Source: Bacteroidaceae bacterium (GTDB taxonomy: Bacteria; Bacteroidota; Bacteroidia; Bacteroidales; Bacteroidaceae). Taken from it: 37,665 nt of DNA. The notes beneath the pieces were generated by a model. The model made no database searches. It worked only from the letters and a program-made list of their open reading frames with translations, and had not been told where the DNA came from. The first letter of the stretch is position 1; every line of letters starts with the position of its first letter. Shown here piece by piece: positions 2,424 through 7,262 of this stretch. The position numbers were made by a program, and so were the translations under genes. The stretch covers positions 1-37,665 of the forward strand of contig JAGCJL010000042.1 in the NCBI GenBank assembly GCA_017647975.1. The letters run 5' to 3'.

Positions 2424-2433
2424 TATTCTCCTT

Positions 2434-2483
2434 ACATATAAAGATTAAGCGAGGCACATGTGCCTCGCTTAATCTTTATATGT
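2434..2483. terminator. Bidirectional terminator, 25-bp perfect palindrome
   Basis: Two exact 25-nt arms (2434-2458 and 2459-2483) with no spacer, centred on CACATGTG. It lies between the converging pyrH and Cthe_2159-like genes. The T-rich 3' side of the stem (CTTAATCTTTATATGT) could serve both strands, because the structure is symmetrical. Confidence 0.75.
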
Positions 2484-2494
2484 ATGTTATATGC

Positions 2495-4132
2495 TTATTT
2501 CTCTTTTGTTACAATCCAGCCACCATTATGCTTGATATCGCAATCCAATGCTATGCCGTTGGTGCTGTATGCATTCAGAATACCAGCATTTACGGTTGTT
2601 TTCAAAGCCGATATTGTGTTGTCGTATGAGCTTAGAACGACTTTTCCTCCGTTTATAGTAAGGTCATTACTTTCAAGTGCCTGGCTATTAAGGTCATTTT
2701 TGCTTCTGCCGTTTGCTACAATGGTAATATTTCCATTGTTGATATTTAGGCTACCATTACAGTTTATACCTTTGCTTCCATTTTGTGTACATTCAATGGC
2801 GATATTACCTTCATTGATTACTATGTCTCCTTCACATTTGATGCCACCGGAGAGTGTGTCGTCGGCGTTGCTTGTTCCTTTTGCAAAACCTGTAATCTTT
2901 CCACTGTTGATTACAATGTTGCCGTCGCAGTTGACTATTTTTGAGCCGTCGCCGTTGACAGTGCCTTCAATGATACCGTCTGTAAGGATGAAGTCGTCAG
3001 CGGTCTTTATACCGGAACTCTTTTCGCCGTTTGTGGTGAAGCCGATGTAACCGCCTCTGATGGTGGCTTTGGCTTTGACGGTGGCATCTTGTTCTTCGTT
3101 TTCTACTTTTATGGCTTCGCCGCCCGAGGTTATTATTGTTTTTCCGGCTTCGATGATGACTTCGCCTTTACCGCAATCGATGCCGTCGGCGGTGGCGTTG
3201 ACGGTTATGCTTGGCGACGCAGCTTCGGTACGTGTTACAATGAACTTGTCGTTGGTGTGGAAGCCGTCTTTAGCAGCTTGTAGTATATTGATGTTGCCGC
3301 TATGAACTCTTATATAGTCATCGCTACATATACCATGACCGCCAAGGCTTTTCACGTTAAGTGTTCCGGTGCCGTCGAAAATGAGCTGTCCTTCGCTGAA
3401 GAGTGTGCCTTTCTGGTCCTCTTCCTTGTCATTTTCGTCAAGAGCAGGTTTGCCGTATGTCGCTCCGTCGCAAAGAGAGTTTGTTGTCTCTTTGTAAAGT
3501 GTAAAATATACAGTTTTTCCTGTCTGTATATTGATAGCGGGGCCAACAGGATTGGTAAGTTCAAGTCCATTGAGTATAATCTGGAACTTGTTCTCGCTGT
3601 ATATCTTTAGGCTACCGTTATTACACTTTCCCTGAACTGTGTACGCAACTTTCTTCTTTGTAGAGGTGATAGTCACGTTGTTGCCATCAATATTATAGGT
3701 GACTCCATCGACTGTCTTGACTGTCGGGCCATCGGCAGTGTAGTTTATGGAAACAGCTCTACTTGCAGAGAAATTTTCCACAAAGTCGCCGAACTCCTCA
3801 TCAGTCTCTAATTCTGGGACAATTGCTGTTACTTCTTTGTAACTATTTTTGTCGTTGGCGTTGAACGACACCGTCGGAGCGGTGTTGTATGTCAATTCGT
3901 TGGTCTTGTTTTTCTTTAAAGAAATCTCATCGGCATTTTCTGTGTTGAACATGCACTTTACACCATCGAGCATCTCGAACGTAACAACCCTCTTTTCTTC
4001 GTCAAAGGTTATTTCCTTTGTCTTTTTTGTCTCTATTTTTTGGTATGTGTTGTTTGTGTTGTTTACATACAAAACCTGTGCCTCTATTGCTGTTGTAGCT
4101 AATAGTGCTATTGTAAAAATGGTCTTTCTCAT
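2495..4132 (-). CDS. Secreted Cthe_2159/DUF4353-like carbohydrate-binding beta-helix protein
   Basis: A 545-residue exported protein with signal peptide MRKTIFTIALLATTAIEAQ. Residues about 20-75 form a beta-rich module (LYVNN..., KEITFDEEKRVVTFEM, ADEISL) similar in pattern to that in the preceding gene. From about 150 on, short repeating strands match the Cthe_2159 family: NGLELTNPVGPAINIQ, GTLNVKSLGGHGICSDD, SGNINILQAAKDGFHTND, ADGIDCGKGEVII, then recurring G-I-N-G/N-I-I rungs to residue 530. The family founder from Clostridium thermocellum is a parallel beta-helix that binds cellulose and acidic sugars. No T9SS sorting domain is visible at the C-terminus (NGGWIVTKEK). It is the last gene of the five-gene operon, overlapping the gene before it by 4 nt (ATGA). 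Surface location is inferred. Confidence 0.85.
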   Translation of the reverse strand: MRKTIFTIALLATTAIEAQVLYVNNTNNTYQKIETKKTKEITFDEEKRVVTFEMLDGVKCMFNTENADEISLKKNKTNELTYNTAPTVSFNANDKNSYKEVTAIVPELETDEEFGDFVENFSASRAVSINYTADGPTVKTVDGVTYNIDGNNVTITSTKKKVAYTVQGKCNNGSLKIYSENKFQIILNGLELTNPVGPAINIQTGKTVYFTLYKETTNSLCDGATYGKPALDENDKEEDQKGTLFSEGQLIFDGTGTLNVKSLGGHGICSDDYIRVHSGNINILQAAKDGFHTNDKFIVTRTEAASPSITVNATADGIDCGKGEVIIEAGKTIITSGGEAIKVENEEQDATVKAKATIRGGYIGFTTNGEKSSGIKTADDFILTDGIIEGTVNGDGSKIVNCDGNIVINSGKITGFAKGTSNADDTLSGGIKCEGDIVINEGNIAIECTQNGSKGINCNGSLNINNGNITIVANGRSKNDLNSQALESNDLTINGGKVVLSSYDNTISALKTTVNAGILNAYSTNGIALDCDIKHNGGWIVTKEK

Positions 4133-4581
4133 CTCTTCACAATTTTATAGGTTTCTTCCCCAACTCTTATTATATATATCCCTTTAGGATATTGATTAAG
4201 GCTTATAACACTACTGTTGCCTTTCATGCGGGTGCAGTATAGTTGTGTACCGGTGATATCATATAAATACACCATTGTACTGTAATTACTGTTGATTTCA
4301 ATCTCATCGTTTGAAATATGACGAATTGTTTCATCCTGTACATTATCTGAAATTCCCGACAAGTAGTAACCAAAATGGATACGGTCAATATCACTCATGC
4401 TGAAACTGTTGGAACTTCCGTTTGCTTGTGATATTGTTACTATTGTACCATTGAAGGTTATTTTCTCAAAATTATTGAAATCGACTGTTGTACTGTTTCC
4501 TTTGCTTTCAATGTACATGTTCTGTGCCAATGCCGGCAAGAGTAACAGAGCGAGTGAAAGTGTCATTAAAAAACGTTTCAT
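4129..4581 (-). CDS. Small secreted protein with T9SS type A-like sorting domain
   Basis: A 150-residue protein with signal peptide MKRFLMTLSLALLLLPALAQ. Residues 21-70 form a beta module (MYIESKGNSTTVDF, FEKITFNGTIVTISQ, MSDIDRIHF) of the kind seen at the start of many Bacteroidales surface proteins. Residues about 85-150 resemble the T9SS type A C-terminal domain: VYLYDITGTQLY, SVISLNQYPKGIYIIRVGEETYKIVKR, with the diagnostic L-x(3)-P-KGIYI-V and terminal K-I-V-K. There is almost nothing between module and sorting signal, so the mature protein would be very small. It lies 13 nt after the DUF2490 gene and overlaps the next gene by 4 nt. It may be a surface-anchored accessory for its operon partners; that role is inferred. 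Confidence 0.8.
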   Translation of the reverse strand: MKRFLMTLSLALLLLPALAQNMYIESKGNSTTVDFNNFEKITFNGTIVTISQANGSSNSFSMSDIDRIHFGYYLSGISDNVQDETIRHISNDEIEINSNYSTMVYLYDITGTQLYCTRMKGNSSVISLNQYPKGIYIIRVGEETYKIVKR

Positions 4582-4594
4582 AAATATGTCCTTT

Positions 4595-5464
4595 TTAAAG
4601 ATCTATAGAATATTCCAAACCTATAGCATGTCCGCCCGGTTCGTCTATGTCACTAATGTCCTGATATAAATAATATAACGATACGGAGTTCTTCTTGTTT
4701 ATCTTGTAACTGGCTCCGGCACGATAACGCATCTTGTCATATCCTTTCCATTCGTTGAGTTTTGTATATAGCTCAGCAGAAGCAAAAGGTGTTATCTTGC
4801 AGTTGGGAATATCGTACTTGATACTTAACCGTGAACGTAACGAGAGATTATGCTTTGCTTCTTTGAATTCACGTTCTGTTTCGGGGAGCAATTCACCTTC
4901 GCCTGTAATGACATCGGTGTATTCCCAACGATACTTTGTCTCGTCGGTTGTGGCAGAACCGGTGTGGGTGTATTGCAGACGTTCTCTTAAAGAAATCTCA
5001 AAACGTCCTACTTTGTATTCTCCGGTGAGCGTTGCATATACTCGGTTGCGTGTTGTCCAGTATGCCGCATCAATATTGTATTCGTATATGTCGTTTTCAA
5101 CGTCAATGGCATCTTTTATGCTTGTCTCGGAAAGTGATTGCGATACAATGAATGTGTATCCGGCGTTGGTCTTCAACTGAAACTTGCCCCAACTCTCGCC
5201 TTTCCATTCTCCAAGCTTATAATCGACCTTTGCACCAATGGCTACACGTTCTACATTGCTCACACCTTCAATGCTGCGTAGTTCGGCATCAAAAGCCAAC
5301 TTTGTGCGTTTGTTGGCTTTTTGGGCAATCTCAAAGGTTGTCCACACGCCAAATTCGTCCTTGTCATTGTCGCTTATGGCATACAATGAGCTAATTGAAG
5401 AGAAAGATATTATTGTAGCTAATAAAGCTCTCTTTATAAATTTATTCTTTGAGTTTGTATTCAT
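4595..5464 (-). CDS. DUF2490-family outer-membrane beta-barrel protein
   Basis: A 289-residue protein with an N-terminal signal segment (IKRALLATIISFSSISSLYAIS) followed by DEFGVWTTFEIAQK and alternating amphipathic strands, many ending in aromatic residues, to the C-terminal GLEYSIDL. This is the DUF2490 pattern: small outer-membrane barrels of unknown function. Typical features are W-x-T near the mature N-terminus, repeated R-R/L-R strands (ISLRERLQYTHT, LSLRSRLSIKYDI, MRYRAGASYKINKKNSVSLYYLYQ) and a short terminal strand. The start overlaps the end of the DUF4956 gene by 23 nt (5442-5464), which argues for coupled expression. It could supply the outer-membrane component of this operon. Confidence 0.85.
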   Translation of the reverse strand: MNTNSKNKFIKRALLATIISFSSISSLYAISDNDKDEFGVWTTFEIAQKANKRTKLAFDAELRSIEGVSNVERVAIGAKVDYKLGEWKGESWGKFQLKTNAGYTFIVSQSLSETSIKDAIDVENDIYEYNIDAAYWTTRNRVYATLTGEYKVGRFEISLRERLQYTHTGSATTDETKYRWEYTDVITGEGELLPETEREFKEAKHNLSLRSRLSIKYDIPNCKITPFASAELYTKLNEWKGYDKMRYRAGASYKINKKNSVSLYYLYQDISDIDEPGGHAIGLEYSIDL

Positions 5465-6296
5465 CTACAGGTGCTTTTAATGTTGTGTCCACTGAATTAT
5501 TGGCATCTTTGCTTCGGTAGTACATCTTTACTATTGCAGCATCTTTCAGGAAGTCAATGCTACCAACCTCAACTTTTTCAATCTTGAGACCTGTACGCTT
5601 CTCAAGGTCGGCAATAAGCTCTTCACGCTTATCGGTTGAAATAAGGTTAATGTTGTCGTACTTTATAACTTTGTAGGAATAGTGACTGATGAGGAGTTTG
5701 CTTTCACAAATCCATATTGAAGCAATAAACAGAAGGTTGATTATAAGAACTTCGCCATAACTCAACTCGCTGACAATAAGTCCGTTGATGGCACTCAATG
5801 CTATAATGATGAACAGATAGGTCATTTCGCGTATTGCAACCTGCTCGGTGCGGTAACGAATGATACTGAATATGGCAAAAAGACCAAGAGCAATACCTGC
5901 TTTAAGTTTTACGTCTCCAAGAACGTAAATGAGCATGAATGTACTTATAGCAATAAGTACATATGTGAAGAAGAACTCGCCACGTTTACATTTTGGATAG
6001 TACAGACAGCGAACTACAATCATTATCGAAAGCAGGTTGATAACGAATGCTATGAGCAGCATCTTTATGTGATGTGCGTCAAAGAATTTGTTGTCACTGA
6101 TACGTTTTTCTTTGATTCCGATAGACATCTTTACATCGTCATCATCAAAGTCTCCGTCAAAAACTTGTCCCTTTTCAATCATTTCGGCGGCGATAATCTC
6201 GCCAACTCCTACTGTTGCATGACACGCTGCAGGTATTGTCTGTGATTGCATTGTCAAACTCATGCATAGTAGCATAAATGTAGTTAGTAGTTTCAT
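5442..6296 (-). CDS. DUF4956-family integral membrane protein
   Basis: A 284-residue protein with an N-terminal signal-like segment (KLLTTFMLLCMSLTMQSQT), an acidic extracytoplasmic stretch (GDFDDDDVK at about 50), then four to five membrane segments between about residues 78 and 205. The signature AGIALGLFAIFSIIRYRTEQVAIREMTYLF, with its conserved Arg-Thr-Glu, is characteristic of DUF4956. A soluble cytoplasmic C-terminal domain (about 215-284; LIADLEKRTGLKIEKVEVGSIDF) has a ferredoxin-like strand pattern. DUF4956 proteins are often encoded beside VTC-domain proteins, as here, where the VTC gene lies 16 nt upstream. Function is unknown; a membrane partner for polyphosphate synthesis or handling is plausible, by comparison with the membrane subunits of yeast VTC. 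Confidence 0.85.
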   Translation of the reverse strand: MKLLTTFMLLCMSLTMQSQTIPAACHATVGVGEIIAAEMIEKGQVFDGDFDDDDVKMSIGIKEKRISDNKFFDAHHIKMLLIAFVINLLSIMIVVRCLYYPKCKRGEFFFTYVLIAISTFMLIYVLGDVKLKAGIALGLFAIFSIIRYRTEQVAIREMTYLFIIIALSAINGLIVSELSYGEVLIINLLFIASIWICESKLLISHYSYKVIKYDNINLISTDKREELIADLEKRTGLKIEKVEVGSIDFLKDAAIVKMYYRSKDANNSVDTTLKAPVDEYKLKE

Positions 6297-6312
6297 CTTT
6301 TTATGTGTTTTG

Positions 6313-7077
6313 TTATTTGTTTTCCATTTTGTTTATCATAATAAGTCTCTCCTTGAAGTTGTTACGCTTCAGATTCTTGTTTGTCAATGCACTGCCTATG
6401 CAGTATTTGCTGAAACCGGAACGCATTATGCGTAAATCCCTAAGTATGTCAACAGCCGGAGAGGGAACATTTCCATCGCGTTTGAGTTCTATGATAGCAA
6501 CTTTTTGTAATCTGTCGTGTCCGTCGCTTTTTAGATGGTGGAATCTTAGGTTAAAGTCAATAGTCAATCTCTCTGTTTTGCCGTAGTTGACCAATGTTAT
6601 ACGGTTGAACCAATTTTCTATGACGGGGTTTATCTCATCAATTTTATACCATGCAACTTTTTCCAAAAAAGGAATAATAGCTTCGTGCTCATTGTGTAGG
6701 GTGTCAAGGCTGCTTATTGGAATACGTTTCTTTTTTGTCCGGCAATGATTGTTCTTGTTTTTTACCTCAAGAAAAGTATCTCCGTTGTCAAGATATGTTC
6801 TTACTCTGATTTTTTCCCTGACTTTTCTACCTGCATGATGCATATGATACATTTGATAATCTTCGGTATCAAAGTATGTTGTATGGTAACTTGCTATTCT
6901 GTTACCATTTATTTCTTGAATGAAATATTTTCCTTGAACGGCAAGCAAGAACGCATGCAACTGTGCGGCAGTTGCTACAAATTTAGTGTCGGTGCGGTTC
7001 ATCAACTTTATACACGACATCTCCTCGAGTGTGATAGGAGGTAGTAGTTGGGCTTTTTCTGCTATGCCGGAGTTCAT
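6313..7077 (-). CDS. VTC-domain (polyphosphate polymerase-like) protein
   Basis: A 254-residue soluble protein of the VTC domain family, whose yeast member Vtc4 polymerises polyphosphate from ATP inside a tunnel lined by basic residues. Family hallmarks are present: NRTDTKF at residues 27-33, SYHTTYFDT at 63-71, REKIRVRTY at 87-95 with alternating basic residues, FLEVKNKNN at 102-110 (Glu104, Lys106), TERLTIDFNLRF at 168-179, AIIELKRDGN at 194-203 (Glu197, Lys199), and SGFSKYC at 220-226. The main catalytic-type basic and acidic positions look intact, so an active enzyme is likely. It lacks SPX and membrane domains, which DUF4956 may replace. First gene of the operon. Confidence 0.9.
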   Translation of the reverse strand: MNSGIAEKAQLLPPITLEEMSCIKLMNRTDTKFVATAAQLHAFLLAVQGKYFIQEINGNRIASYHTTYFDTEDYQMYHMHHAGRKVREKIRVRTYLDNGDTFLEVKNKNNHCRTKKKRIPISSLDTLHNEHEAIIPFLEKVAWYKIDEINPVIENWFNRITLVNYGKTERLTIDFNLRFHHLKSDGHDRLQKVAIIELKRDGNVPSPAVDILRDLRIMRSGFSKYCIGSALTNKNLKRNNFKERLIMINKMENK

Positions 7078-7100
7078 TTGTGTATTATCGTTTAAGTATT

Positions 7101-7120
7101 ATACTACATTATTGTAGTAT
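7101..7120 (-). promoter_or_regulatory. Leader hairpin upstream of the VTC operon
   Basis: ATACTACA-TTAT-TGTAGTAT, exact 8-nt arms with a 4-nt loop. It lies between the predicted -7 box (7136-7143) and the VTC start at 7077, so it would be in the 5' leader. It may instead be an operator; there is no U-tract. Confidence 0.35.
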
Positions 7121-7135
7121 GTGTCACAATTACTG

Positions 7136-7143
7136 CAAATATA
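7136..7143 (-). promoter_or_regulatory. Probable promoter of the VTC-DUF4956-DUF2490 operon, -7 box
   Basis: On the minus strand this reads TATATTTG, an exact TAnnTTTG. The start of transcription would be near 7129, about 50 nt before the VTC start codon. No convincing -33 box is visible. Confidence 0.4.
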
Positions 7144-7262
7144 GATAAAAGTTTATATATAAAATTTAATATTAACGTTTTTTATTGTTCATCCATTAAA
7201 ATATTATTACATCTTTTGCTTCTCTCTGCCTCTTGTATTAAATTCGCATAAATGTTGTTTTT

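Follow-up and report, generated by a model that had tools for sequence, protein, structure and literature searches.

We identified a five-gene operon in a 37,665-nucleotide stretch of a Bacteroidaceae bacterium genome (GenBank assembly GCA_017647975.1, contig JAGCJL010000042.1; the whole stretch is the window). It encodes, in transcription order, a VTC-domain protein, a DUF4956 membrane protein, a DUF2490 protein, a small protein with a sorting tail like those of the type IX secretion system (T9SS) and a Cthe_2159-type beta-helix protein. On our best reading, drawn by analogy, the operon resembles a split yeast VTC complex with an added outer-membrane exit. That it is a trans-envelope system for the synthesis and export of polyphosphate, or of a closely related phosphate polymer, we judge from its sequences to be an evenly balanced proposition. 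We observed conservation of the genes and their order, co-occurrence across genomes and conservation of individual residues; the substrate, the direction and the role of each part are what we infer. The initial annotation had described five tightly spaced minus-strand genes at 2495-7077, a layout borne out by the open reading frame (ORF) table and by Pfam and NCBIfam labels. Its proposal that they make and export polyphosphate gained indirect support from the conserved order and tunnel residues, with product and outward direction still presumptive.

VTC and DUF4956 were found as a near-obligate pair. We surveyed 149 evenly sampled genomes of the order, 151 genomes of the family and a control set of 14 genomes. 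Across the order sample, VTC was present in 74 genomes and DUF4956 in 79; the two coincided in 73 and were both missing from 69, leaving 1 genome with VTC alone and 6 with DUF4956 alone (Fisher 4.5e-34, shared ancestry uncorrected). DUF4956 lay on the same strand within 600 bases at 77 of 80 order VTC loci, VTC coming first in 65 and DUF4956 in 12. The family sample gave 89 genomes with both, 1 with VTC only and 61 with neither, and at 88 of 90 family VTC loci DUF4956 was within 700 bases. In the control set the two genes were confined to 3 of the 14 genomes, B. ihuae, C. glutamicum and M. acetivorans, each of which has both. CotH is present in the latter two and absent from B. ihuae, which has DUF2490 and Cthe_2159; B. 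subtilis has CotH without VTC. Of 72,556 plasmid records, 17 contained VTC and 17 DUF4956, 16 being common to both and 9 of those 16 coming from Aminobacter; none of 50,697 phage records matched DUF4956. An apparent VTC-DUF4956 fusion in Bacteroides cellulosilyticus (L107:7836-7977) was rejected as an artefact because a run of N in the record bridges both genes.

Conservation extended beyond the pair. We read neighbourhoods at 60 loci from the order, 20 from the family and 80 from named genomes, these last being the 80 of 566 most similar to the query; 4 of the named loci (L107, L116, L134 and L178) were lost to an ORF overlap filter, leaving 76, and the sets are not independent because some named records look like duplicates (L115 and L040 have the same gene sizes). 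VTC, DUF4956 and DUF2490 stood in one same-strand run at 20 of 20 family loci, joined by Cthe_2159 in 16, and across the named loci the same run held VTC in 74, DUF2490 in 68 and Cthe_2159 in 43. All seven same-genus loci (L214-L220) carried the same five genes in the same order, and at each of them the fourth gene was a homologue of the window's small gene (6.2e-19 or better). Gene order, which the initial annotation had singled out for checking, proved conserved in order, family and same-genus loci. It is therefore very improbable that five unrelated envelope genes are neighbours by chance, since all seven same-genus loci share both genes and order. The outer parts do vary: just 32 of the 80 order VTC loci have DUF2490 no more than 1600 bases away, and 23 of the 30 Cthe_2159 places entered (one per ORF) lack a VTC within 6 kb. 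Against this, Cthe_2159 lay on the same strand within 4 kb of VTC at 70 or more of the 90 family loci, and for the VTC-DUF4956-DUF2490 trio the locus counts largely refute a chance grouping.

The VTC-domain protein matched Pfam PF09359 (8.8e-31, 107.7 bits against a cut-off of 23), the sole Pfam domain on its 254-amino-acid chain, on which neither an SPX domain nor a membrane segment was recognised. The single sequence found no PDB relative, but a profile built from 56 relatives matched yeast Vtc4 structures (best 5e-12); the underlying alignment holds 56 of 57 profile matches, with the L062 sequence left out. The Vtc4 tunnel residues K200, R264, R266, K281, K294, R361, R373, E426 and K458 are all kept in the window. 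Fourteen window positions aligned with Vtc4 (K32=K200, R91=R264, R93=R266, E104=E279, K106=K281, K116=K294, R118=R296, R159=R361, R170=R373, D174=D377, E197=E426, K199=K428, S223=S457 and K224=K458) were each conserved in 55-56 of the 56 sequences, and R28, aligned with Vtc4 R196, in 55. The initial annotation had raised the loss of basic tunnel residues as a sign of an inactive domain; in this alignment they are intact. In the same bacterial family alignment R28 and K199 are basic, as in Vtc4, and D30 is acidic. The roles of Vtc4 tunnel residues other than R264, R266, E426 and K458 are presumed here. In the literature (cited throughout from partial texts), R264A/R266A/E426N impairs yeast Vtc4 (PMC9911596), hydrolytic tunnel enzymes have four glutamates at positions that are basic in Vtc4, and the plant counterpart of the catalytic Vtc4 K458 can be lost with little effect on hydrolysis (PMC4641920). 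Overall, the residue pattern of the bacterial VTC family leans towards a polymerase. As its conserved catalytic residues suggest, the VTC protein would work on the cytoplasmic side of the inner membrane, with ATP as the source of the phosphate that it polymerises.

The near-obligate pairing and the topology of DUF4956 suggest that it would be the membrane partner of VTC and probably a translocation channel. By hydropathy, residues 71 to 204 contain some five hydrophobic segments, and a soluble C-terminal region follows. By hand reading of hydropathy and charge, the signal-like N-terminus would lie outside, placing basic loops at 98-106 and 147-156 and the conserved C-terminal region inside; these loops and the C-terminal region may hold the VTC enzyme in the cytosol. 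Across an alignment of 60 of 61 profile matches (L062 left out), positions 147, 149 and 234 were K or R in every sequence with a residue there (60, 60 and 56, respectively), and K or R was also common at 156 (93%) and 130 (77%). Basic residues are carried by the yeast channel helices as well (PMC9911596), and by this analogy the fixed basic residues of DUF4956 would suit a partner for an anionic polymer. A likeness to MgtC, seen by eye in motifs, was rejected when hhalign returned a probability of 0.86%, the same value that the best among six column-shuffled controls reached, in a comparison made weak by a set of only 9 MgtC sequences. The window protein carries an acidic run, DGDFDDDD, in the signal-like stretch before its first hydrophobic segment, and many other DUF4956 members are 50-80 residues shorter. 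Its nearest named relative found, 75% identical, comes from a sheep-rectum Bacteroidaceae metagenome-assembled genome.

DUF2490 would form the outer-membrane exit, a role suggested by its barrel family and by other envelope-crossing proteins that replace it elsewhere. The window protein has a weak OMP_b-brl match (6.8e-4, under cut-off). Three unrelated envelope-crossing devices accompany the core: DUF2490, which is usual in the order, a HlyD-type adaptor and, once, Porin_O_P. The adaptor, a protein resembling the periplasmic adaptors of the HlyD/RND type, preceded VTC at 12 of 12 VTC-first loci (L088-L091, L242, L244, L247, L252, L257-L259 and L261) of a weakly scoring DUF4956 group, of which 24 of 34 places were read; 4 of the 12 built the profile, leaving 8 of 8 as the independent count. 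It was present in none of the 10 DUF4956-first loci read in this group and absent from the 2 remaining loci, of which one lacks VTC and the other has an intervening gene. The adaptor gave a best NCBIfam match of 1.8e-12, HlyD in 4 of 4 scanned and PDB AcrA at 0.004; the HlyD match seen in full was far below its curated cut-off, and no Pfam family exceeded cut-off in 3 scanned. On one Pseudoalteromonas plasmid, a Porin_O_P gene ('phosphate-selective', 2.4e-47) directly follows DUF4956. The 104-amino-acid ORF before DUF4956 there (L235:7652-7966) resembles, on visual inspection, the C-terminal part of a VTC gene, and no full VTC ORF was seen in the region. Because unrelated envelope-crossing parts occur with the same core, the earlier idea of an envelope-spanning operon was strengthened, whereas outward movement along it stays conjectural. 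Inspection of the tables by eye also placed DUF2490 away from VTC, in the vicinity of CotH (five genomes) or of Cthe_2159 (two genomes).

At the surface, the acidic beta-helix Cthe_2159 protein and the small T9SS protein would receive, display or use the polymer, and in other loci a CotH-type kinase would take their place outside. The Cthe_2159 protein scores 186.2 bits against a cut-off of 25.8 for PF14262 and matches PDB 4peu/4phb at 1.5e-5. Its predicted co-variation with VTC was clear in the family sample (both 84, VTC only 6, Cthe_2159 only 6, neither 55) and weaker in the order sample (both 20, VTC only 54, Cthe_2159 only 5, neither 70), in which VTC and CotH were found together in 63 genomes, VTC only in 11, CotH only in 30 and neither in 45. 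Among 149 VTC runs, 13 had CotH only, 63 Cthe_2159 only, 1 both and 72 neither (Fisher 0.004, duplicates included). This alternation is an operon-level matter, because genomes commonly hold both: 21 of the 25 order-sample genomes with Cthe_2159 also have CotH. No window ORF was among the local CotH profile matches, and the window's own genome has 2 such matches. As the initial annotation stated, CotH accompanies the pair in Gram-positives (PMC7112168); it is not confined to them, since CotH also occurs in VTC operons of the same order.

The link to CotH needs no VTC, because four VTC-less DUF4956 loci of the order set (L067, L075, L086 and L087) adjoin an exported-looking protein of a family, c9, that is CotH-like by profile comparison (hhalign 94%, E 9.5e-8; unrelated controls at most 0.2%). 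At L067 and L075 an ankyrin-repeat metallophosphatase (Pfam on the L067 copy) stands with VTC-less DUF4956 and c9, and c9 and the phosphatase are a possible kinase/phosphatase pair. Within 6 kb of DUF4956, the 60 order loci had VTC in 56, DUF2490 in 34, CotH in 16, c9 in 7 and Cthe_2159 in 6; at 31 of the 60 no CotH, CotH-like (c9) or Cthe_2159 protein was recognised, all these counts using local profiles that may undercount. Surface proteins are thus not a constant part of the system.

The T9SS tail was the sole borderline label of the five, passing the NCBIfam cut-off (TIGR04183, 29.5 bits against 23) and falling 0.6 bits under that of Pfam (Por_Secre_tail, 26.4 against 27). A gene of 100-199 amino acids lay between DUF2490 and Cthe_2159 at 36 loci, the window included, and phmmer with the window protein matched 29 of the 35 other in-between genes at E 0.001 or better. 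Of four such proteins examined, two have a dockerin and two are T9SS-tail-like, one over and one under the Pfam cut-off. In Bacteroidota relatives, dockerin type I was seen on the small partner or on Cthe_2159 (L121:9640-10068, L129:2420-2827 and L170:10647-11999, at 8.4e-11, 1.1e-8 and 2.1e-8, respectively), where it replaces the T9SS-like tail.

These outer parts bear on the suggestion that VTC-DUF4956 aids exopolysaccharide or surface-protein modification or attachment, through CotH phosphorylation or Cthe_2159 binding, with a polyphosphate or nucleotide product being minor or regulatory. Binding to cellulose and polygalacturonic acid is reported for Cthe_2159 proteins (PMC6712302), some CotH proteins of relatives have T9SS tails, and in streptococci, clostridia and bifidobacteria the pair and CotH stand beside Pel polysaccharide genes (PMC7112168). 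However, Pfam and NCBIfam found no polysaccharide synthase family among the five operon proteins, and the 31 order loci without a recognised surface protein also argue against such a role, which we regard as unlikely.

Independently of the VTC name, plasmid neighbours are evidence tying the system to phosphate in some lineages, with no direction given. VTC or DUF4956 was found in 18 plasmid records, and 8 regions were opened, 2 of them unannotated. On a Nitratireductor plasmid the order is DUF4956, VTC, a PiT phosphate transporter (1.7e-106) and a phytase-like gene, this last being a family name only; Aminobacter and Shinella plasmids have DUF4956, VTC and then a gene annotated phytase-like. 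On the Deinococcus QL22 plasmid, VTC and DUF4956 are followed by an opposite-strand acid phosphatase and phnDCE. PPK1 and PPK2, whose presumed product is the same as the operon's, were not detected in the window's own genome (80% complete), an absence that counts in favour of the export reading. The PPK families are unrelated to VTC. Their distributions did not suggest that VTC stands in for missing PPK1, an idea ruled out by the lack of association in the 149 order genomes (VTC and PPK1 44, VTC only 30, PPK1 only 49, neither 26).

Several observations weigh against polyphosphate synthesis and export. Vtc4 K455 is not kept, the window having G221. Position 30 is D or E in 56 of 56 sequences, where Vtc4 has T198 and hydrolytic triphosphate tunnel metalloenzymes have Glu; it is the second position of an ExExK-type strand, the correspondence with AtTTM3 having been made by motif and not by structure. 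From sequence, the acidic residue may be hydrolase-like or mark a third state. The tunnel fold also yields hydrolases, such as polyphosphatases (PMC4641920). DUF4956 had no convincing PDB match, its two hits being at chance level (best E 0.19), DUF2490 is patchy across the order, and the co-occurrence statistics ignore shared ancestry. VTC is no simple replacement for PPK1, because their presences are unrelated. The stretch read in Deinococcus taeanensis (CotH, VTC, DUF4956) showed no phosphate gene, a scan of three neighbours in each of the unannotated regions (Streptomyces, Nonomuraea) gave no phosphate family, and several of the phosphate neighbours seen elsewhere suit uptake as well as export.

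Those neighbours (phosphate-selective porin, PiT, phytase-like, acid phosphatase and phn genes), the conserved acidic position 30 and the polyphosphatases of the same fold would also fit inward phosphate acquisition, in which a barrel or porin and DUF4956 import short polyphosphate or a phosphorylated ligand that VTC hydrolyses or senses in the cytosol. Of the alternatives we take this one most seriously, yet hold it improbable: the polymerase-distinguishing R28 is conserved in 55 of 56 sequences and K116, R118, K199 and K224 (Vtc4 K458) in 55-56, and both CotH kinases and T9SS-type proteins suggest that something is needed outside. HlyD-type adaptors, found beside the core, are known from export. 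Beyond polyphosphate export by this operon, we consider it quite doubtful that VTC-DUF4956 serves bacteria and archaea in general as a machine for moving a high-energy phosphate polymer through the envelope, so as to power phosphoryl transfer in places that lack ATP, with exported CotH-type kinases using the polymer as donor and, in the Cthe_2159 form, the beta-helix holding it, perhaps with calcium, at the surface.

The operon is compact. Successive genes are separated by a 16-nt gap, a 23-nt overlap, a 13-nt gap and a 4-nt overlap (ORF table), and the Pfam scores of VTC, DUF4956, DUF2490 and Cthe_2159 are all above curated cut-offs. A plus-strand gene on either flank bounds the unit, a divergent HD-domain gene on one side and a convergent AA_kinase (pyrH-like) gene on the other; a Pfam scan of the flanking genes gave AA_kinase, HD-domain and biotin/lipoate ligase. 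The palindrome listed below is a probable two-way terminator, and TATATTTG, read by eye in the divergent intergenic region, fits what we take to be the Bacteroidota -7 motif, TAnnTTTG. The GC contents of operon and window are close (0.402 and 0.407). Other loci have further genes beside the operon: at L032:7737-11026 a DUF6057 membrane protein (9.1e-102) and a PD40 protein directly follow DUF2490, with genes of like size at the same places in L033. A histidine kinase and LytTR pair follows the operon at L055, L062, L072, L076, L080, L084, L221 and L226, labels that rest on Pfam for one LytTR (L072) and one kinase (L226) and otherwise on clustering or inspection by eye; the pair is perhaps a dedicated regulator.

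Features of the operon and its boundaries (positions within the window)
Feature	Position	Strand	Size	Basis or context
VTC-domain protein	6313..7077	-	254 amino acids, isoelectric point 9.6	Predicted cytosolic Vtc4-like polyphosphate polymerase
DUF4956 membrane protein	5442..6296	-	284 amino acids	Pfam PF16316 6.7e-54, hydropathy
DUF2490 protein	4595..5464	-	289 amino acids	Predicted outer-membrane beta-barrel, Pfam PF10677 2.5e-28
Small exported protein, C-terminal T9SS type A-like sorting tail	4129..4581	-	150 amino acids	TIGR04183
Cthe_2159-type beta-helix protein, signal-like N-terminus	2495..4132	-	545 amino acids, isoelectric point 4.9	Pfam PF14262 9.4e-55
Perfect palindrome	2433..2484	.	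52 bases	Between Cthe_2159 gene and convergent AA_kinase (pyrH-like) gene
Divergent intergenic region, AT-rich	7078..7262	-	185 bases	Upstream of VTC gene

The operon shares features with several known systems. Like the yeast VTC complex (Vtc4 with Vtc1/Vtc3), it has a homologous tunnel domain with catalytic residues kept and a paired membrane part. Unlike it, the VTC chain lacks an SPX domain and a membrane segment, the membrane part is a separate DUF4956 gene, and outer-membrane and surface parts are added; because of the missing SPX and the separate membrane chain, we do not count it as a member of the eukaryotic complex. The Gram-positive CotH-PPP-DUF4956(-DUF4832) Pel accessory genes (PMC7112168) likewise have adjacent VTC ('poly-phosphate polymerase') and DUF4956, here set 16 nt apart, whereas DUF2490, the T9SS-type protein and Cthe_2159 here replace CotH and DUF4832; without CotH, the operon is not a member of that set as defined. 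In Clostridium perfringens NELoc-2 (PMC2879425), CotH lies beside two VTC genes that both have a 'tubulin' gene after them, and the putative 'tubulin/FtsZ GTPase' is probably DUF4956; this locus, unlike ours, is Gram-positive and has no outer membrane.

Closer to the window, BT3498-BT3499 of Bacteroides thetaiotaomicron place DUF4956 and DUF2490 together in an iron-response table (PMC10434189); their row shows 0.175 in an apparent p-value column, and the available passage proposes no function. A paper that uses 'VTC' for another domain (PMC6514570, in its available part) has no bearing here. The Gram-positive CotH-PPP-DUF4956 group is already published (PMC7112168), and for the Bacteroidota VTC-DUF4956-DUF2490-Cthe_2159 operon we found no functional account in the open-access literature searched. 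In its accessible text, a 2026 paper still assigns VTC4-type synthesis to Eukarya and PPKs to bacteria (PMC13318637).

If polyphosphate export is the true function, polyphosphate would be the secreted product of a dedicated machine in common gut bacteria, and bacterial VTC, DUF4956, DUF2490 and Cthe_2159 would gain one testable function. A Bacillus spore-coat paper, in the part available, leaves the ATP source for CotH kinases unanswered (PMC7821199); the system described here would offer a possible answer to where exported CotH kinases obtain their phosphate.

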